Shown: positions 14,846 through 41,957 of the stretch, in pieces
Numbering within the stretch: position 1 is the first letter of the stretch
Layout of the letters: the number at the start of each line of letters is the position of its first letter
Assembly: GCF_002915175.1 (NCBI RefSeq)
Contig: NZ_NXEJ01000002.1
Coordinates: 30,236 to 94,235, forward strand
Source of the DNA: Agrobacterium rosae
GTDB lineage: Bacteria > Pseudomonadota > Alphaproteobacteria > Rhizobiales > Rhizobiaceae
Direction: 5' to 3'
Length of the DNA: 64,000 bases
Program-made: the position numbers and the translations under genes
Notes under the pieces: model-generated
Database searches by the model: none
What the model was told of the DNA's origin: nothing
Seen by the model: the letters and a program-made list of their open reading frames with translations, nothing else

Positions 14846-14870
14846 GGAACCATTGTGATCTGATCCCGTT
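14846..14870 (+). promoter_or_regulatory. EcfG-type promoter upstream of gcd
   Basis: GGAAC (14846-14850), a 16-nt spacer and CGTT (14867-14870) fit the EcfG consensus exactly. The expected start lies about 25 nt before the gcd ATG. It sits 9 nt after the ansA stop, so gcd can be expressed apart from the ans genes. A chance match cannot be ruled out. Confidence 0.55.
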
Positions 14871-14901: not shown

Positions 14902-17241
14902 ATGGCAGTGACATCAACTGCAGTCATCCTGACGCTTATTGGACTAGCAATTTTTGGCTTTGGATCTCAGCTCGTGATGCTGGGCGGAAGCTTTTATTAT
15001 GCATTGGCAGGTATCGCATTCGTGGTCACTGCCGTTCTTCTGTTTAAGAGAAACAAAGCGGCACTGCACTTCTATGCCGCTTTCGTGGTCGCGACATTGT
15101 TGTGGGCCCTATGGGAAGTCGGCTTCGACTGGTGGCAACTCGGCCCTCGTGGCGGTTTCATCATCCTGATTGGCATGTGGCTTTTGATGCCATGGATCAG
15201 AAAGCCGCTCGGCTTTACCAGTCCGACAGGCACCTCTTACGGTGCGAATGCGGTTCCGTTACTGACGGCTGTGCTGGTTTCGGTCGGTGCCGCAGCGTTT
15301 GCCATGACCCAGGACCCGCATGATCTGGAAGGCAATCTTCCCAGCGAGATCGTTACGGCGGCTCCATCCTATGGAAACGACGTTCCTGATGGTGACTGGC
15401 ACCAATATGGCCGGACATCCTACGGTCAACGTTATTCGCCGCTGACGCAGATCAACGCGACAAATGTCAGCGGATTGAAAGAAGCGTGGCGCTATCAAAC
15501 GGGCGACGTCAAGTTGCCCGATGACGTGGGCGAGACGACCTATCAGGTGACGCCCTTAAAAGTCGGCAATTCGCTTTATCTCTGCACACCGCACAATTGG
15601 GCCATCGCGGTGGACGCTGCGACCGGCAAGGAAAAGTGGAAATACGATCCTAACGCCGGAATGAACCCCGACCGCCAGCACCAGACCTGCCGCGGCGTGA
15701 CATATTATGCCGATCCGGCAGCTGAAAGCGGTGCCTTTTGTGCCGCTCGAGTTTATCTGCCGACGTCAGATGCCCGTCTCATCGCACTCGATGCGGCGAC
15801 GGGCCAGGTCTGCACGACTTTTGCCGACAAGGGTACTCTTCGTCTGACGACCGGCATGGAGCATAATCCGGCTGGTTACTACTACTCGACATCCCCACCT
15901 GCTATTGCGGGCAACAAGATCATCATCGGCGGTGCCGTCAACGACAACTACTCGACGCAGGAGCAGTCCGGCGTCATCCGTGCGTTTGACGTTGCGACTG
16001 GTGCTTTGATCTGGAACTGGGATTCGGGAAACCCTACCCAGACCCGACCGCTTCAACCGGGTCAGACCTATACGACCAACTCTCCCAACAGCTGGTCGGT
16101 ATTCAGCGTCGATGAAGCGCTTGGGCTTGTTTACATCCCCTTGGGAAATCAGGTTCCGGACCAACTCGGTATGGGTCGAAGCGAGAATGTCGAGAAATAT
16201 TCATCGTCCATCGTCGCGCTGGATGTAAACACCGGGCAGGACAAGTGGGTTCGCCAGTTCGTGCATCACGACCTCTGGGACATGGATGTTCCGGCGCAGC
16301 CTGTGTTGCTCGACATTACCAAGAAGGACGGACAGACGGTTCCGGCCCTAGTTGGCCCAACCAAACAGGGCGACATCTATGTTCTGGACCGCCGCAGTGG
16401 CGAGCCTATTCTGGCTGTGACGGAAGAAAAGGCTCCCGGCGGTACGATTCCGGAAGATTTCAGCGCGCCGACGCAGCCGACATCCGCTTTGTCGTTCAAG
16501 CCTGATCCGCTGGTTGAAAAGAACATGTGGGGCGTTTCCATGTTCGACCAGCTGGCCTGCCGCATCAAGTTCCACCAGCTGAATTATGAGGGTCGCTATA
16601 CGCCGCCGTCGCTGAATGGGTCTCTGATTTATCCCGGCAACTTCGGCACATTCAACTGGGGCAGCGTTGCGGTTGATCCAGAGCGTCAGGTGATGTTCGG
16701 CATGCCGACCTATCTGGCCTTCACGTCGCAACTCGTTCCGCGCTCTCAGATTCCGCCACGCGGTCAGGATGAAAAGGGCAGCGAGCAAGGCCTGAACCGG
16801 AACGATGGCGCGCCTTATGGTGTCTTTATGGGGCCATTCCTTGGGCCATTGGGTGTTCCGTGTCAGGCTCCGCCATGGGGCTATGTCGCAGGCGCTGATC
16901 TGCGCACCGGTGATGTGGCCTACAAGCACAAGAACGGCACCGTCTATGACATGACGCCGCTGCCACTGCCGTTCAAAGTGGGTGTTCCCGGTATCGGCGG
17001 ACCGATGATCACCAAGGGTGGCGTCGCGTTTCTGGGGGCTGCGGTCGATAACTACCTGCGCGCCTACGACCTGACATCCGGAAAACAGCTTTGGGAAGCG
17101 CGGCTTCCTGCTGGGGGTCAGGCAACGCCGATGACCTATGCCATGGACAATGGCAAACAATATGTGGTGATGGTTGCAGGCGGACATGGTTCGGTCGGCA
17201 CCAAGCCCGGTGATTACGTCATCGCCTATACGCTGCCTTAA
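14902..17241 (+). CDS. gcd: Membrane-bound PQQ-dependent glucose dehydrogenase
   Basis: This 779-residue quinoprotein oxidises aldoses such as glucose to gluconolactone on the periplasmic face and passes electrons to ubiquinone. Residues 1-140 hold about five membrane helices. From about 165 on, an eight-bladed propeller follows, starting DWHQYGRTSYGQRYSPLTQINA and containing HDLWDMDVPAQPVLLD. The length fits E. coli Gcd (796). A quinate or shikimate dehydrogenase of the same family is possible. No pqq synthesis gene lies in the window, so cofactor supply is unknown. A perfect EcfG-type promoter lies just upstream. Confidence 0.88.
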   Translation: MAVTSTAVILTLIGLAIFGFGSQLVMLGGSFYYALAGIAFVVTAVLLFKRNKAALHFYAAFVVATLLWALWEVGFDWWQLGPRGGFIILIGMWLLMPWIRKPLGFTSPTGTSYGANAVPLLTAVLVSVGAAAFAMTQDPHDLEGNLPSEIVTAAPSYGNDVPDGDWHQYGRTSYGQRYSPLTQINATNVSGLKEAWRYQTGDVKLPDDVGETTYQVTPLKVGNSLYLCTPHNWAIAVDAATGKEKWKYDPNAGMNPDRQHQTCRGVTYYADPAAESGAFCAARVYLPTSDARLIALDAATGQVCTTFADKGTLRLTTGMEHNPAGYYYSTSPPAIAGNKIIIGGAVNDNYSTQEQSGVIRAFDVATGALIWNWDSGNPTQTRPLQPGQTYTTNSPNSWSVFSVDEALGLVYIPLGNQVPDQLGMGRSENVEKYSSSIVALDVNTGQDKWVRQFVHHDLWDMDVPAQPVLLDITKKDGQTVPALVGPTKQGDIYVLDRRSGEPILAVTEEKAPGGTIPEDFSAPTQPTSALSFKPDPLVEKNMWGVSMFDQLACRIKFHQLNYEGRYTPPSLNGSLIYPGNFGTFNWGSVAVDPERQVMFGMPTYLAFTSQLVPRSQIPPRGQDEKGSEQGLNRNDGAPYGVFMGPFLGPLGVPCQAPPWGYVAGADLRTGDVAYKHKNGTVYDMTPLPLPFKVGVPGIGGPMITKGGVAFLGAAVDNYLRAYDLTSGKQLWEARLPAGGQATPMTYAMDNGKQYVVMVAGGHGSVGTKPGDYVIAYTLP

Positions 17242-17340: not shown

Positions 17341-17394
17341 TGTAATAACATTACAAAAGCAATGCTTGACGACTCGTTTCCAATACGTCTATCT
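17341..17394 (+). promoter_or_regulatory. Promoter and 15-bp palindrome before the riboswitch
   Basis: TGTAAT-AAC-ATTACA (17341-17355) is a perfect dyad. TTGACG (17366-17371) and CTATCT (17389-17394), 17 bp apart, make a plausible housekeeping promoter. The dyad ends 10 bp before the -35 box, suitable for a regulator. Such AT-rich dyads are typical of Fur/Zur-like metal regulators, but I cannot assign the protein. Confidence 0.45.
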
Positions 17395-17600
17395 GGTTGT
17401 GACGGTTTCGAGCGAGTGATCGCAAGAAATAATAGGGAATGCGGTGCGAGCCTTCGGGTTTAATGCCGCAGCTGCCCCCGCAACTGTAAACGGATTGTCC
17501 AACCCTTTGGCGCTTTCACAAGCGTCATGCCACTGCGAAGCAATATCGCGGGAAGGTGGGTGAAGACGCAAATCCGTGAGCCAGGAGACCTGCCGTCATA
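17394..17600 (+). ncRNA. Cobalamin (B12) riboswitch
   Basis: The region has the layout of the cobalamin aptamer: a first segment with GGGAATGCGGTGCGAG and CCGCAGCTGCCCCCGCAACTGTAA, then GCCACTG, GGGAAGGTGGG and the B12 box GAGCCAGGAGACCTGCC at 17578-17594. Adenosylcobalamin binding normally lowers expression downstream. A stem CGGGC/GCCCG (17618-17633) follows, just before an AGGAG. It lies upstream of a BtuFCD-like importer, which agrees with corrinoid control. The boundaries are approximate. Confidence 0.93.
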
Positions 17601-17646
17601 AGTTCATTCCAATTCACGGGCGGGGATGCCCGGAGCAGGAGACGTC

Positions 17647-21090: not shown

Positions 21091-21272
21091 TCCTTGGATT
21101 TGGCCGTAATGAGTTGGCGCATCCGTTTTCGGTTGCGCCTCTCTTGAATTGAGCAGACGGCCTCCCACATCTGGATCAACCCGCTGGTCCGGGCCCCTCT
21201 GGTGAAAGTCTCGGCGCTTTCACGATGTCGGACCTTTTCCGATGTCTTCGCCGAGTGTGCAGAGGTTAGCGC

Positions 21273-31824: not shown

Positions 31825-32394
31825 TTAGCGAATTGCTGCTGCAGCAGTGACAGCGGCAACCTGGGCATCAGGCCCGAACTCGTTTTCGTCCTGGATACCA
31901 AGCAGTTCCTGCAGACGAAGACGCGCACGGCTCACACGGCTTTTGATCGTACCAACGGGGCAACCGCAAATCTCTGCAGCTTCCTCATAAGCAAAACCGG
32001 AGGCACCGATCAGGAGAATCGCTTCACGCTGATCTTCCGGAAGCTTTGCAAGAGCAGTCTTAAAGTCCTGCAAATCCACGGAGCCATGCTGTTCCGGTGG
32101 CACGGACAGCCGGGACGTGTAAACGCCATCCGTGTCCTGAACCTCACGGCCGGATTTTCTGATCTGGCTGTAGAATTCATTGCGAAGGATCGTCACCAAC
32201 CACGCTCGCATATTGGTGCCCGGCTGGTAGCTTTCCTGCTTCGCCCAAGCCTTCATTATCGTATCCTGTACGAGGTCATCGGCGCGGTCGCGAGAGCGAA
32301 TGAGGGAAATGGCGAATGCTCGTAGATTGGGAAGGGCGGCCAGCATTTCGCGCTTGAAATTGTGTTCGTTCTTGCTCGAATCTGTTTCCATCAT
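31825..32394 (-). CDS. ecfG: ECF sigma factor EcfG, general stress response
   Basis: This 189-residue ECF sigma factor has region 2 (SLIRSRDRADDLVQDTIMKAWAKQ) at about 30-95 and region 4 (LPEDQREAILLIGASGFAYEEAAEICGCPVGTIKSRVSRAR) at about 120-175. Its gene overlaps nepR by ATGA, the standard arrangement for the alphaproteobacterial general stress sigma. NepR should hold it until phosphorylated PhyR binds NepR. Its expected promoter form, GGAAC-N16/17-CGTT, occurs repeatedly in the neighbouring gaps. Confidence 0.93.
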   Translation of the reverse strand: MMETDSSKNEHNFKREMLAALPNLRAFAISLIRSRDRADDLVQDTIMKAWAKQESYQPGTNMRAWLVTILRNEFYSQIRKSGREVQDTDGVYTSRLSVPPEQHGSVDLQDFKTALAKLPEDQREAILLIGASGFAYEEAAEICGCPVGTIKSRVSRARLRLQELLGIQDENEFGPDAQVAAVTAAAAIR

Positions 32395-32591
32395 CCCCTC
32401 GAAGCTTTTGCGTTATTTTCAGCTTCGTCGAGCTTTTCGAGCAGATCGAGAAATTTGTCTGGAATGCCCTCGTCCTGAACGGCATCATACAGTTCTCGTA
32501 ATTTACGCGAGATGACGGCTCTACCCGAGTCGGAAACCGTCGGCGACGTTCCCTTGTCAGATGGATCCTGATCCGATTGAAACATATTCAT
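32391..32591 (-). CDS. nepR: Anti-sigma factor NepR
   Basis: This 66-residue protein has the NepR core ISRKLRELYDAVQDEGIPDKFLDLLEKLDEAE at about 27-58, with a disordered Asp/Ser-rich N-terminus. It binds EcfG in unstressed cells and the sigma-like part of phosphorylated PhyR in stress. The gene precedes ecfG with a 4-nt overlap. Start codons at 32591 and 32585 are both possible. The promoter upstream is a near-perfect EcfG site, which gives positive autoregulation. Confidence 0.93.
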   Translation of the reverse strand: MNMFQSDQDPSDKGTSPTVSDSGRAVISRKLRELYDAVQDEGIPDKFLDLLEKLDEAENNAKASRG

Positions 32592-32649: not shown

Positions 32650-32670
32650 AACCCACTGGAACTATTTTTT
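32637..32670. repeat. Perfect 14-bp inverted repeat joining two divergent EcfG -35 boxes
   Basis: AAAAAATAGTTCCA and TGGAACTATTTTTT face each other across ACCCAC. Each arm contains one GGAAC box followed by the same A/T run, so the -35 parts of the nepR and phyR promoters are identical and back to back. The -10 boxes lie outside the repeat and differ. Confidence 0.85.
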
Positions 32671-32682
32671 GAACGCCGCGTT
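32658..32682 (+). promoter_or_regulatory. EcfG-type promoter of phyR
   Basis: GGAAC (32658-32662), 16 nt and CGTT (32679-32682) fit the consensus exactly. A start near 32689 gives a leader of about 43 nt to the phyR ATG. Confidence 0.75.
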
Positions 32683-32731
32683 TTTTCCATTAGGTTTGCG
32701 TTGCAAGCCGCATGATACAGGGGAGAATTCC

Positions 32732-33526
32732 ATGTCAGTTTCTACACGCATCGCACCGCATCTGCCTTACCTCCGCAGGTTTGCCCGTGCCGTTTGCGGT
32801 TCACAATCGACAGGTGACGCATATGTTGCCGCCAGCCTTGAAGCCTTGATCGCAGATGTGAGCATTTTTCCGCAGACAAGCAGCGATCGCGTTTCACTTT
32901 ACCAATTGTTTGTCTCGATCTTTAGTTCCGTGACGATCAACATCAAGAGCGACGAAAACCTGACTGGCTGGGAAAAGCGCGCATCCGCCAATCTTTCTGC
33001 GGTCCCCGCAGTTCCGCGTCAGGCATTCTTGCTAACAACCGTTGAAGAATTCTCCATCGCCGAAGTTGCCGAAATTCTGCGCGTACCCGAACCGCAAGTT
33101 GGGAAGCTCATCGATGAGGCCGCCTCTGAAATCGCCCGCCAGGTCGCGACCGACATCATGATCATCGAGGACGAACCTCTGATCGCGATGGATATTGAGC
33201 AGATGGTGACCGATCTCGGCCATAACGTGACCGGCATTGCACGCACACACAAGGAAGCGCTCGAGCTGTTCCACCGGACACAGCCGAAGATGATCCTCGC
33301 GGATATTCAGCTTGCAGACGGAAGCTCCGGTCTGGAAGCAATGAAGGAAATTCTTCAGATGACCACGCTGCCTGTCATCTTCATCACGGCTTTCCCGGAA
33401 CGCCTTCTCACAGGCGAGCGTCCTGAGCCGACCTTCCTCGTCACCAAGCCATTCAACCCTGACATGGTAAAAGCCCTCATAAGTCAGGCTCTGTTCTTTA
33501 ATGAAAGTTCACGTGTCGCAGCTTAA
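32732..33526 (+). CDS. phyR: Stress response regulator PhyR
   Basis: This 264-residue anti-anti-sigma factor has an N-terminal ECF-sigma-like domain (about 1-125) and a C-terminal receiver (about 135-255) that begins IMIIEDEPLIAMDIEQM. The phospho-accepting Asp lies in ILADIQLADGSSG. When phosphorylated, the sigma-like part draws NepR away from EcfG. The ATG at 32732 has GGGGAG upstream. It is divergent from nepR-ecfG and is followed by a PhyK-like kinase. Confidence 0.95.
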   Translation: MSVSTRIAPHLPYLRRFARAVCGSQSTGDAYVAASLEALIADVSIFPQTSSDRVSLYQLFVSIFSSVTINIKSDENLTGWEKRASANLSAVPAVPRQAFLLTTVEEFSIAEVAEILRVPEPQVGKLIDEAASEIARQVATDIMIIEDEPLIAMDIEQMVTDLGHNVTGIARTHKEALELFHRTQPKMILADIQLADGSSGLEAMKEILQMTTLPVIFITAFPERLLTGERPEPTFLVTKPFNPDMVKALISQALFFNESSRVAA

Positions 33527-33636: not shown

Positions 33637-34632
33637 TTGCATCGGCTGGCGTGGCATAATGCGGGGCGAGATGAGGGCGACCTTCACGATTCACTCGTGC
33701 TTGCCCTGTTGGACTCTGATGAGACGGTCATGCTTCAGGACCGCGACAAAGAATATATCTTTATCGCAAACCTGCCAGACGTCTGGAGTCTGCCGACTGA
33801 AACCGACGAGGAGCCGAATGATGTAACGATGTTCGGCAAGGACCTCGCTACCCGCCTGTCGGATTTGAAGAAAGATCTGACATCGGCAGGAAGCAGGGGC
33901 ATGCTGGAGGTGAGTGCGGGCAAGGACCGTGTCTTTCAGTTTCACGTCTACTCCACCGTCAACATGTCCGGACAACGCGTTCTGAAAACGACGATCAGAG
34001 AGATAACGGTTGAGCGAAGGCGAGAGCAGTTGCTCCGCTCACTGTTGCGCGAAGTCAGTCATCGCTCCAAAAACCTCCTCGCCATTATCCAGAGTCTCTC
34101 GTCCCAAACAGCGCGGTTCAGCCTGACGAAGGACGACTTTTTGCGCAAATTCAGGGGGCGGCTGCACGCATTGGCGCAGTCCCAGGATTTGATAACGGAT
34201 TCCGATTGGCGCGGTGCCGAGATTTTCGACTTGCTGAAACAGCAGGGAGATCTCTATCTTCCGGAATACCCGCATCTGATCCAGATGAAGGGCGAGAACC
34301 TTCTTCTCAATCCCAATGGCGCTTTATATGTGGGGCTGGCCTTCCATGAACTGGTCGTCAACACGATCAGCCACGGGGGAAATCTGTCGCAACACCTGCC
34401 GTTGACGCTCGATTGTCGCAAAGACGGTGAGTTTTTCGAAGTGCGCTGGGTGGAGCCGCTGGGCGGAAGCGGTGCATCTCAGATGCCTGCCGATTCGGAC
34501 AAGAGAAGCAATTTCGGAAGTGTGGTTTTGGAAAAGGTCGTGCCCGCTGCATTGGGTGGTGAGGCCACATACAAGGTCTCTGCCGATAGCATCGATTACT
34601 TCTTGAGATTTCCCGCTCCGCTGCCGACCTGA
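33637..34632 (+). CDS. HWE/HisKA_2-type sensor kinase, PhyK-like
   Basis: This 331-residue kinase has an N-terminal PAS-like part (about 15-125), then the phospho-acceptor box LLREVSHRSKNLLAIIQSLSSQ and an ATPase part with FHELVVNTISHGG and FGSVVLEKVVPAALGG. It has no membrane segment. The TTG at 33637 is taken as start because TAGGAG lies 7 nt upstream. HWE/HisKA_2 kinases next to phyR normally phosphorylate PhyR. Confidence 0.85.
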   Translation: MHRLAWHNAGRDEGDLHDSLVLALLDSDETVMLQDRDKEYIFIANLPDVWSLPTETDEEPNDVTMFGKDLATRLSDLKKDLTSAGSRGMLEVSAGKDRVFQFHVYSTVNMSGQRVLKTTIREITVERRREQLLRSLLREVSHRSKNLLAIIQSLSSQTARFSLTKDDFLRKFRGRLHALAQSQDLITDSDWRGAEIFDLLKQQGDLYLPEYPHLIQMKGENLLLNPNGALYVGLAFHELVVNTISHGGNLSQHLPLTLDCRKDGEFFEVRWVEPLGGSGASQMPADSDKRSNFGSVVLEKVVPAALGGEATYKVSADSIDYFLRFPAPLPT

Positions 34633-34734: not shown

Positions 34735-34838
34735 AAAAAAGCACGGCTCCGTAGAGCCGTGCTATCTATGGCAGGTTTTCAGGGGCAAAACCTGCGTGCG
34801 CCAAGCCTCAGGCGGGGACGGGGAGTGGCTTGGCTTGT
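34735..34838 (-). ncRNA. Predicted stress-induced small RNA with C-rich loops
   Basis: From an expected start near 34838 the minus strand gives about 104 nt with three stems and no ORF. Stem 1 (34833-34801) is CCAAGCC/GGCTTGG with a 19-nt loop holding CUCCCCGUCCCCGCC. Stem 2 (34795-34771) is GCAGGTTTT/AAAACCTGC with loop GCCCCUG. Stem 3 (34763-34740) is AGCACGGCTC-TACG-GAGCCGTGCT followed by TTTTTT, an intrinsic terminator. A perfect EcfG-type promoter lies upstream. C-rich loops can pair with ribosome sites, as in Caulobacter GsrN, a stress-sigma-dependent RNA; kinship with GsrN is not claimed. Confidence 0.65.
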
Positions 34839-34844
34839 TTTAAA

Positions 34845-34869
34845 AACGCAGGTCTCGAAACTTGGTTCC
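34845..34869 (-). promoter_or_regulatory. EcfG-type promoter of the predicted small RNA
   Basis: On the minus strand GGAAC (34869-34865), 16 nt and CGTT (34848-34845) match exactly. It lies 15 nt beyond the stop of the histidine kinase gene and points into a 250-nt stretch with no coding gene. Confidence 0.7.
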
Positions 34870-34883
34870 AAGCGGTTTCAATT

Positions 34884-36587
34884 TTAATTCGGGACGGCCG
34901 TTTTTTTTCGAGCGAGAAAATGATGCGTGGGTGCCGTAAGGGTCCAACGAAATCCATGAACCGTATAATCCGTTGAAATGGTTGCGGAAAATGAACTTTC
35001 TGCATGACGTTTCGTAATGGTTGTGCCGAAACCGCTTCGGGTCGGAGGAACGGCGGGCGGCCCGCCGACATCTTTCCAGCGGATGGTCAGCTGATCACGA
35101 TCACCGTCGATCTCACGATCCCAAAAGAGTTCGACAGTGCCTGTGGCCGCTGACAGCGCACCGTATTTGATCGAGTTGGTCGCCAGCTCGTGAATGATGA
35201 GACCCAGATTTTGTGCAGCTTCCGGTGACAGCATGAAGTCTTGTCCGGCGAGCTTGACCTGATCTATGGCGCTTCCGAAAACCTTCAGATGCGTTTCCAG
35301 CAATTTGTGTATCGGCAGGCCCTGCCACTGAACCTCTGATAGTGCGCTGATCGACATCCCCAAACCACGGAGGCGGTGTTCTACCTCCTTTTGAAAATCG
35401 GCAACGCTGGTGTTTTCGCGCGCCAGCTGGCGCATCATCGCCTGAACCAGCGTCAGCATGTTCTTGGAGCGGTGTACTAGTTCGTGCAGGATGAGGTGGG
35501 TGCGGTCTTCCGCCTGGCTGCGATCGAAGGACGCGTTGGAAAGCGCAATGGCGACCTGGTTGGCTTCCTTTATCTTCGTGTCGATTGGCGACACGATTTC
35601 GCCCTCACCAATCCGCTTGGCCATCTCGACCAGTTCGCGTATCGAGCCGCGCATCTGTCTGCCGACCAGATAAGCGCCGGCAATAGCAATGAGAACCAGG
35701 GCAAAGCTGCCGGTTATCATCTTGCGCCAGGTGCTTGCCAATGCGGACTGGCTGTTGTCGGCTGGTCCCCAGATGATGGCTTTCCACGACCACCCCGGCA
35801 GCTGCGAGTAGGCATATATGGTACCGTCGTCATCTTCAAAGCTGCCGCTGAACGCCCGGATTTGATCGCTTGCCAAGGTTTGGGAGAAAGTGGCTCCGGC
35901 TGCGATTGTCTGCGGTGTGCTGGATGCCACGACGCGATTGTCTCCATCCAATATCGCTATCGTCCAGCCCGGCGGGAGGCTTTCCGTCGAAATCAGCCCC
36001 ATCAAATCGCGGGCATTCTGCGTCATGATCAGCGCGTCACCCGCAGCAGAGAGTGCTGATGGCAATGGGCGCATGACGTTAAAGACCCATTCCTTGCTGG
36101 TATTGCCATAAAAGATGTTGGACACCACGGTCCTGCGTCCGGAAATGACGTCTGAAAGCTTGATCGCGGGCGGCACATTCCCGAGGGGCTGGTCGAGCGG
36201 CACGCGGCTGTTTAATCGCTGTTTGCCGTCGGCGGTTGCGATGATGACGTATAGACCTTGCTTTTGGAGGCTATCACTCACACGCTTGTGAAACGCCGCG
36301 AGGTCTCCATCCTCCAGCTCTGGAAACTGCGAGAGCAGATTGAGGGAGGTTGCCATTTCCTGCAGACGGCGGTCGATGTTGCGGCTGACCGCACGCGCAT
36401 CTTCCATGGCCTCCCTTTGAAGGTCGCCCCGTTCGTCTGCCTCCAGCTTCAACATCAAATAGCCGACGAATATAATCAATGGCAGCGTGATAACCGTTGT
36501 CATAACAACGAGATAGACACTAATAGGCGCGGTTGGAAAAAAACCGGCAAGGCGCTGTCGTAGTCTCGGTATGATATTGTTCTGCAT
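34884..36587 (-). CDS. Membrane sensor histidine kinase, HWE type, with periplasmic sensor
   Basis: This 567-residue kinase has a membrane helix at about 22-47, a periplasmic region of about 230 residues that looks like a double Cache sensor, a second helix near 285-310, HAMP, and the kinase core. The acceptor box is LILHELVHRSKNMLTLVQAMMRQ and the ATPase part has IIHELATNSIKYGALS and GFGTTITKRH. It lies in the stress locus, so it may be a second input to PhyR. No EcfG site is seen before it. The C-terminus is basic (FLARKKTAVPN). Confidence 0.88.
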   Translation of the reverse strand: MQNNIIPRLRQRLAGFFPTAPISVYLVVMTTVITLPLIIFVGYLMLKLEADERGDLQREAMEDARAVSRNIDRRLQEMATSLNLLSQFPELEDGDLAAFHKRVSDSLQKQGLYVIIATADGKQRLNSRVPLDQPLGNVPPAIKLSDVISGRRTVVSNIFYGNTSKEWVFNVMRPLPSALSAAGDALIMTQNARDLMGLISTESLPPGWTIAILDGDNRVVASSTPQTIAAGATFSQTLASDQIRAFSGSFEDDDGTIYAYSQLPGWSWKAIIWGPADNSQSALASTWRKMITGSFALVLIAIAGAYLVGRQMRGSIRELVEMAKRIGEGEIVSPIDTKIKEANQVAIALSNASFDRSQAEDRTHLILHELVHRSKNMLTLVQAMMRQLARENTSVADFQKEVEHRLRGLGMSISALSEVQWQGLPIHKLLETHLKVFGSAIDQVKLAGQDFMLSPEAAQNLGLIIHELATNSIKYGALSAATGTVELFWDREIDGDRDQLTIRWKDVGGPPAVPPTRSGFGTTITKRHAESSFSATISTDYTVHGFRWTLTAPTHHFLARKKTAVPN

Positions 36588-39407: not shown

Positions 39408-39432
39408 AACGTGCCGCTCGGGGTTTGGTTCC
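39408..39432 (-). promoter_or_regulatory. EcfG-type promoter of the DUF883-DUF1469 operon
   Basis: On the minus strand GGAAC (39432-39428), 16 nt and CGTT (39411-39408) match exactly. The start near 39401 gives a leader of about 55 nt. Confidence 0.7.
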
Positions 39433-40668: not shown

Positions 40669-40718
40669 AGCACTCAAACACACTCATCCCTGCGGGGATA
40701 AAGGGGGCATCACCTGAA

Positions 40719-41957
40719 ATGAAGAAGAACGTTCTCATCATCGGCGCCGGTGGCGTGGCACAGGTCGTGGCGCATAAATGCGCCCAGAACAGCGATGTAT
40801 TGGGAGACATTCATATTGCGTCACGCACTGTCGAAAAGTGCCGCAAGATTGTCGAGTCCGTACGCGAAAAGAAGAGCCTCAAGACAGACGTCAAACTTGA
40901 GGCCCATGCGCTTGACGCGATGGATATCGAAGCAACGAAAGCATTAATCGCAAAAACCGGCGTTCAGATCGTCATCAATGTCGGTTCGGCTTTCGTCAAC
41001 ATGTCCGTTCTTCGCGCCTGCATGGATGCAGGTGTTGCCTATATGGATACCGCCATTCACGAAGATCCGACCAAGATCTGCGAAAATCCACCTTGGTATG
41101 GAAACTACGAGTGGCAGCGCGCGGCCGAGTGCAAGGAAAAGGGCGTTACCGCCATTCTCGGCGTCGGCTTCGATCCGGGTGTCGTCAACGCCTATGCGCG
41201 TTTGGCCAAGGATGAGTATTTCGACAAGGTCACCTCGGTCGATATCGTCGATATCAATGCCGGCAGCCATGGCCGCTGGTTTTCGACCAACTTCGATCCG
41301 GAAATCAACTTCCGTGAATTTACCGGCGTCGTCTATTCCTGGCAGAACAACCAGTGGCAGACGAACGAGATGTTCGAAGTCGGTCAGGAATTCGACCTGC
41401 CGGTCGTCGGCAAGCAGAAGGCCTATATGACCGGCCACGACGAAGTCCATTCGCTTTCCAAGAACATGGATGGCGCAGACGTGCGTTTCTGGATGGGCTT
41501 CGGTGACCACTACATCAACGTCTTCACCGTGTTGAAGAACCTTGGCCTGCTCTCCGAAAAGCCGGTCAAGACCGCCGAAGGTCTGGAAGTCGTGCCGCTG
41601 AAACTGGTCAAGGCCGTGCTACCCGATCCGTCTTCGCTGGCACCTGATTATGTCGGCAAGACCTGCATAGGCGATGTCGTGAAGGGCATCAAGGATGGCA
41701 AAGAGCGTGAAGTCTTCATCTACAACGTGGCCGACCATAAGGACGCCTACAATGAAGTCGGCTCTCAGGGCATTTCCTATACCGCTGGCGTTCCGCCAGT
41801 TGCTGCGGCCATGCTGATCGCCACCGGCGAATGGGATGTGAAGCAGATGGCAAACGTGGAAGAGCTGCCGCCGCAGCCATTCCTCAATATTCTCAACAAA
41901 ATCGGCCTGCCAAGCCGCATCAAGGATGAGAACGGCGACCGCGCCCTGACATTCTGA
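40719..41957 (+). CDS. Carboxyspermidine dehydrogenase (saccharopine dehydrogenase-like)
   Basis: This 412-residue NADPH enzyme reductively joins aspartate semialdehyde to putrescine. The Rossmann motif is IIGAGGVAQVVAHKCAQN at residue 7; GVGFDPGVVNAYARLA and SQGISYTAGVPPVAAA are typical of the family. It begins 50 nt after the decarboxylase gene, whose product completes spermidine synthesis. The protein family is often mis-named saccharopine dehydrogenase; the neighbour decides the call. A strong terminator follows. Confidence 0.9.
   Translation: MKKNVLIIGAGGVAQVVAHKCAQNSDVLGDIHIASRTVEKCRKIVESVREKKSLKTDVKLEAHALDAMDIEATKALIAKTGVQIVINVGSAFVNMSVLRACMDAGVAYMDTAIHEDPTKICENPPWYGNYEWQRAAECKEKGVTAILGVGFDPGVVNAYARLAKDEYFDKVTSVDIVDINAGSHGRWFSTNFDPEINFREFTGVVYSWQNNQWQTNEMFEVGQEFDLPVVGKQKAYMTGHDEVHSLSKNMDGADVRFWMGFGDHYINVFTVLKNLGLLSEKPVKTAEGLEVVPLKLVKAVLPDPSSLAPDYVGKTCIGDVVKGIKDGKEREVFIYNVADHKDAYNEVGSQGISYTAGVPPVAAAMLIATGEWDVKQMANVEELPPQPFLNILNKIGLPSRIKDENGDRALTF

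Follow-up and report, generated by a model that had tools for sequence, protein, structure and literature searches.

A small RNA gene of about 104 nt was identified within the general stress locus of Agrobacterium rosae, in a stretch of 64,000 nt of genomic sequence (hereafter the window). Comparison with related genomes indicates that it is a real and conserved gene of this locus, and its conservation puts it beyond chance. Judged by its position, which is that of ReC64 of Rhizobium etli, and by its GsrN-like features, the RNA is a further case of an RNA type already described in relatives. Its expression is probably driven by the stress sigma factor EcfG, as suggested by its promoter motif and by analogy with ReC64. 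We estimate a probability of about three in four that it acts in trans as a small regulatory RNA in the alphaproteobacterial general stress response, being GsrN-like and the Agrobacterium counterpart of ReC64. What the sequences show is the gene, its structure, its promoter footprint, its location and its conservation; transcription in A. rosae is inferred. Coordinates are collected in Table 1.

Table 1. Coordinates in the window of the predicted small RNA, its promoter and the neighbouring genes.
Feature	Position	Strand	Remarks
Predicted small RNA, about 104 nt	34735-34838	minus	putative start site about 7 nt after the -10 element
-35 element GGAAC of the predicted EcfG promoter	34865-34869	minus	GGAAC with 16-nt spacer in 39/39 genus genomes
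-10 element CGTT	34845-34848	minus	16 nt after GGAAC
Hairpin 1 (predicted fold)	34800-34834	minus	8-bp stem 34834-34827/34807-34800
Hairpin 2	34771-34795	minus	9-bp stem 34795-34787/34779-34771; loop GCCCCUG
Intrinsic terminator and T run	34735-34763	minus	10-bp stem 34763-34740; helix 3 covaries in relatives
ecfG, general stress sigma factor	31825-32394	minus	Sigma70_r2 and Sigma70_r4_2; adjoins nepR
nepR, anti-sigma factor	32391-32591	minus	PF18557
phyR frame, anti-anti-sigma response regulator	32669-33526	plus	Pfam PhyR_sigma2, PhyR_sigma-like, Response_reg
tcrY-type HWE histidine kinase, convergent with the RNA	33637-34632	plus	PF07536
Second HWE histidine kinase	34884-36587	minus	Pfam; sub-threshold Cache match

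An earlier, sequence-only reading of the window had described a GGAAC-N16-CGTT site pointing into a gap between genes, followed by two hairpins with C-rich loops and a terminator, all fitting together as one unit. The site was present on the minus strand (34869-34845), and both hairpins were recovered by folding. The 104-nt RNA folded at -48.1 kcal/mol, compared to -28.6 +/- 3.0 kcal/mol for 200 shuffled sequences (z = -6.6). In the predicted fold the apical loop of hairpin 1 is 19 nt long, ACUCCCCGUCCCCGCCUGA, and contains CCCCGUCCCCGCC; three weak inner pairs are also drawn within this loop by the minimum-energy fold. The 10-bp terminator stem stood as described, but the "six T" (34740-34735) include the last T of the stem. 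Taken singly, the promoter motif and the terminator are weak evidence. The EcfG promoter motif was only mildly enriched in the window (6 sites versus 1.5 expected, a number reached by 1 of 100 shuffles), and terminator-like sites between 33000 and 37500 were not enriched at all (4 found versus 4.5 expected). The combination is specific: promoter, C-rich-loop hairpin and terminator together were found at one place in the 64 kb by a combined scan. Only one frame of at least 20 amino acids starts inside the RNA on the same strand, with its start at 34744 in the terminator. An Rfam search of the region gave nothing at the gathering threshold at the RNA; at E <= 10 three weak matches were obtained, the best being L20_leader (23.5 bits, E 0.019, cut-off 58.7). 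The 6C/B11 RNA of Actinobacteria also has hairpins with C-rich loops, but differs in phylum and locus, and 6C was absent among the Rfam matches of the region.

The RNA was found in all 39 Agrobacterium genomes, in 38 by BLASTN (E <= 5.6e-15) and in one, G219, by covariance model (E 3.9e-8). A DNA search with the RNA matched 4 of 199 genomes of the family; the four belong to this genus and include the genome of the window itself. Mean column identity over the 39 genomes was 0.87 in the -35 block, 0.48 in the spacer and 0.81 in the -10 block. It was 0.79-0.99 in the RNA and 0.73 in the T run, and fell to 0.44 beyond it. Outside the RNA, blocks above background were seen just upstream (A/T-rich, 0.76) and towards tcrY (up to 0.85). 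Among 15 Agrobacterium sequences two-sided changes were observed in 6 of 25 pairs, compared to at most 2 when the partners were slid; four of the six fell in hairpin 2, where they affected 4 of 8 pairs. Further pair types in these 15 sequences were not above shuffles. Conservation of stems and C-rich loops in relatives was one of the three tests that the sequence-only reading had set for itself; both were conserved, so its claim survived this test. Its wider proposal, an EcfG-type RNA of the GsrN kind with C-rich loops inside the stress locus, found support in the conservation and covariation, in the promoter footprint and in the neighbouring genes.

The frame of the second kinase (34884-36587) ends 14 bp before the -35 box of the RNA on the same strand, and the terminator scan listed no site between the two. 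Both points favour an alternative, in which what looks like a separate RNA is chiefly the kinase mRNA's 3' end with its terminator, and the EcfG motif is fortuitous or an added promoter. We consider this quite unlikely. The spacer and the sequence just upstream are poorly conserved (0.44-0.57, apart from the A/T-rich block), whereas the -35 box, the -10 box and the RNA are kept. Moreover, the next gene on this side is a different one in some other genera (at L091, L097 and L102, a second EcfG motif stands ahead of a frame that is CsbD-like by eye). The position between the convergent tcrY and second kinase genes would also fit a mere terminator region with no function in trans, but termination requires neither a conserved promoter nor two extra hairpins whose unpaired loops are conserved, making this explanation highly improbable.

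The -10 box of the RNA was CGTT in 17 of the 39 genomes, CATT in 17 and TGTT in 5. At 12 of 12 named loci (the sample described below) whose RNA has CATT or TGTT, the CGTT motif upstream of phyR was kept; an EcfG pattern upstream of phyR was not found at two of the named loci, L046 and L059. The promoter of the RNA may have been retuned in the CATT/TGTT clade, and EcfG dependence may be weaker in 22 of the 39 genomes, because the -10 box has changed there while the phyR motif keeps CGTT. In the window, an EcfG motif was found near the start of the phyR frame (32658-32682), and the true phyR start is probably somewhat downstream of 32669.

The RNA had been presented as unannotated. This holds only in part: the equivalent RNA of R. 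etli, ReC64, has already been mapped and is EcfG1-dependent, and a GsrN homologue was predicted in 2018 in 'Agrobacterium radiobacter'. The strain in question may be K84, in which case it now belongs to Rhizobium. No description of the window RNA in Agrobacterium proper was found among the literature matches listed, and in three Agrobacterium RNA papers (PMC3738593, PMC4201532, PMC7486931), whose accessible main text has no usable coordinates or gene names, no match to the locus was found.

According to the accessible parts of the reports, ReC64 is an 88-nt RNA downstream of phyR-tcrY, and its start determined by 5' RACE fits an EcfG1 motif; a ReC64 reporter was abolished in an ecfG1 mutant and remained at 82% in an ecfG2 mutant (PMC3892343). 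ReC64 was found in a tiling-array study that also reported a larger band (PMC2881028); Northern blots detected it in stationary phase (PMC3892343, PMC2881028), and saline shock led to its over-expression (PMC4167512). The motifs predicted before ReC64 in the last of these studies are of the SigA and RpoH types and not of the EcfG type (PMC4167512). ReC64 was published as early as 2010, and the text available assigns it no function. Like ReC64, the window RNA is intergenic, lies downstream of phyR-tcrY in the ecfG-phyR region and has an EcfG motif at its start; unlike the 88-nt ReC64 it is about 104 nt long by prediction, the two being compared by position and promoter description only.

In the accessible text of Tien et al. 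2018 (PMC5869019), ReC64-type RNAs are classed as putative GsrN homologues. Such homologues are proposed there from transcript data in R. etli, S. meliloti and Brucella abortus, and that of 'Agrobacterium radiobacter' by BLASTN from R. etli. They are typically located near ecfG-nepR-phyR (PMC5869019), and the window RNA was likewise found close to these genes. It shares with GsrN, as described, a general-stress-sigma promoter (here by sequence) and an exposed C-rich 5' loop (here predicted and conserved). In contrast, gsrN of C. crescentus is described as distal to the locus and as activating katG through its leader. The Rhizobiaceae homologues are drawn with a small hairpin flanking the C-rich loop (PMC5869019), whereas the window RNA has one open loop. 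By the strict Caulobacter criterion, a GsrN is stabilised by Hfq and cleaved to a stable 5' isoform. A second comparison is offered by PmaR of Agrobacterium tumefaciens, a stationary-phase sRNA acting through a C-rich loop (PMC6234868). The accessible description is of a spoon-like RNA with one long stem and a C-rich end loop, located between two hypothetical genes (PMC6234868); the window RNA, unlike this, has three predicted hairpins and lies beside tcrY.

Conservation beyond the genus was studied at 79 named tcrY loci, taken from the best 80 of 482 confirmed; R. etli is not among these 79. An RNA with an EcfG-like promoter was found beside tcrY, on its downstream side, at 57 of the 79 loci (22/22 of the Agrobacterium type and 35/57 of the others). 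It was opposite in strand to tcrY at 55 of the 57 and on the same strand at two (L085 and L096), and at all 35 non-Agrobacterium loci with the RNA the -10 box was CGTT. Scanning the locus gave no motif at the remaining 22 of 79. One locus, L006, was missed by the motif expression and yet has the RNA, with N bases. A match at L095 and a second match at L078 were left out of the counts, and matches at L108 and L110 were dropped as terminators by eye. Thirteen loci (L104-L110 and L112-L117; Ciceribacter, Allorhizobium, Rhizobium and others) had no RNA beside tcrY by the motif scan.

In an alignment of 34 Rhizobiaceae sequences the loop 1 core (CCCCGU, then CCC) and the CCC of loop 2 were invariant or nearly so, and the stems differed. 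Among the 20 non-Agrobacterium sequences 99.3% of the cells were paired, and two-sided changes were observed in 14 of 28 pairs, compared to at most 3 when the partners were slid and 6.2 in shuffles. Helix 2 never varied in this set, and further pair types showed no excess (23 versus a shuffled mean of 22.4). A covariance model built without Agrobacterium (R1) found the window RNA at 34840-34729 with 27.1 bits and E 8.4e-5, the next match having E 9.9. The R1 match alone does not prove homology, since reverse complements of the RNA in other loci scored 17-28 bits, as high as the window. The case for homology is carried by position, promoter, loop sequence and fold together. A combined alignment (A6) was fitted to R1, and its 26 of 28 pairs were not relied on. 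In a whole-genome covariance search with a second model (R2) at E <= 0.01, at least 23 of 297 genomes of the family and at least 7 of 199 of the order were matched, the window's own genome being counted in both. Since scoring took in no more than 12 or 18 candidates from each genome, a miss says little; matches with E 0.001-0.01 were left out of the homologue count. A pattern search matched 41 of 394 family genomes, many of them by chance, because a reversed-pattern control also often matched.

A wider set comprised 90 tcrY loci from the 124 family genomes with a TcrY match (151 searched), and a PhyR-like match was present at all 90. A looser signature of EcfG-like promoter, C-rich-loop hairpin and strong terminator was found at 20 of the 90 loci, in 16 genera, three of the 20 being of this genus. 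It was opposite to tcrY in 20 of 20 cases, and dinucleotide shuffles gave 1 in 900. A stricter signature was found at 17 of 90 loci compared to 0 of 450 shuffles. Within the tcrY locus, to which the scan was confined, 70 of 90 loci had no signature; some RNAs are missed by it, as L183 and L184 have the RNA. The stems of the wider class are mostly unrelated in sequence. The class is defined by position and signature, and homology across it is not established by sequence. In several members, among them L205, L226, L236 and L261, inspection by eye suggests a fold in which the C-rich loop carries a small hairpin, as in the figure legend for Rhizobiaceae GsrN in Tien et al. (PMC5869019). An EcfG-like promoter opposite a kinase gene, with C-rich segments and a 13-bp terminator stem, was also observed in Nisaea nitritireducens (L076:6137-6300, minus strand; z -4.1). 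Nisaea is presumably a genus outside Rhizobiaceae, and the element is possibly a GsrN-like RNA.

The proposed action of the RNA begins with stress, upon which EcfG would be freed from NepR and would transcribe the RNA from its own locus. The RNA would fold into two hairpins presenting the conserved C-rich loops, plus the terminator. The most likely pairing partners of these loops would be G-rich ribosome-binding regions in target mRNAs, with Hfq perhaps taking part, and the outcome would be repression or, in some cases, activation of the targets. C-rich sequences of GsrN (PMC5869019) and PmaR (PMC6234868) pair with mRNAs, and by analogy the loops may block or pair at ribosome sites here. Pairing at ribosome-binding sites is regarded as the likeliest action because the loops are complementary to G-rich ribosome-binding sites.

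The leaders of 30 katG genes of the genus were compared. In 7 of 7 leaders from the window's side of the genus, G runs reached 2 at most; one of these leaders, L280, gave a shuffle p of 0.03 with loop 1. In the other clade (21 genomes) the katG site was identical in 20, loop 2 had UUUCG in 11 and UUUCA in 10, and loop and site matched in 10. As a conserved target katG was rejected, the site being fixed in 20 of 21 genomes and matched by loop 2 in 10, with no compensation. The katG match was also absent in three of four g47 genomes and in G219, all of which carry the RNA. A pairing of loop 2 with the katG start region (GGGCGAAA) in two relatives, for which 0 of 300 shuffles were as good, was superseded by this count over 21 genomes, the wrong loop variant having been used for one of the two, L286 (G204). 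Whole-RNA duplex energies with katG, dominated by long loose pairings, were not used. The failure of katG means that the Caulobacter target is not simply transferable.

Thirteen window genes were also scored as targets in 26 tests, in which the assumed starts of phyR and of the PRC-barrel gene deviated by a few bases. The best value was obtained for a saccharopine-dehydrogenase-type gene at 40719 (-25.7, 0 of 200 shuffles). A single such value is unsurprising because 26 tests were made, and this gene is not claimed as a target: the G-rich segment is half of the gene's own conserved hairpin. The sequence CCCUGCGGGG (40685-40719), located just before this gene, was seen in the window and in 8 of 9 relatives having the gene (13 stretches fetched). 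The exact complement of loop 1, GGGGACGGGG, occurred at three places in the window's own genome, namely the RNA gene and the interiors of two long open frames. The reversed control occurred 27 times, a comparison in which avoidance and codon bias are not separated.

The loop cores stay while the stems turn over, and none of the few candidate targets was conserved. Both observations are in line with C-rich loops whose effect is mediated by a protein, or which serve as a sponge or a broad anti-Shine-Dalgarno decoy, instead of pairing with particular mRNAs. This is judged unlikely: GsrN and PmaR, which have C-rich loops, act on named mRNAs, and the absence of targets is a weak argument, covering only katG and 13 window genes. 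A related suggestion, which we offer tentatively and hold to be possible but doubtful, is that the general stress locus of many Rhizobiaceae genera regularly includes an EcfG-driven RNA convergent with tcrY; as its stems turn over completely and its C-rich loops stay, this RNA may act as a general brake on translation at G-rich ribosome sites instead of regulating a fixed set of targets, katG for example. If the trans-acting reading is true, the general stress response of these plant-associated bacteria gains a post-transcriptional branch whose gene lies in the stress locus itself. The 39-genome alignment and the covariance models make the RNA directly testable in Agrobacterium.

Five further EcfG-like motifs were observed in the window, at 14846, 32658, 33551 and 36733 on the plus strand and at 39408 on the minus strand. 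The genes behind them are an unidentified frame near 14902, phyR, tcrY, the gene for a PRC-barrel protein and the gene for a DUF883_C-like small protein (sub-threshold). Elsewhere in the window, a cobalamin riboswitch (17386-17611, plus) and a terC RNA (21181-21240, plus) were identified by Rfam.
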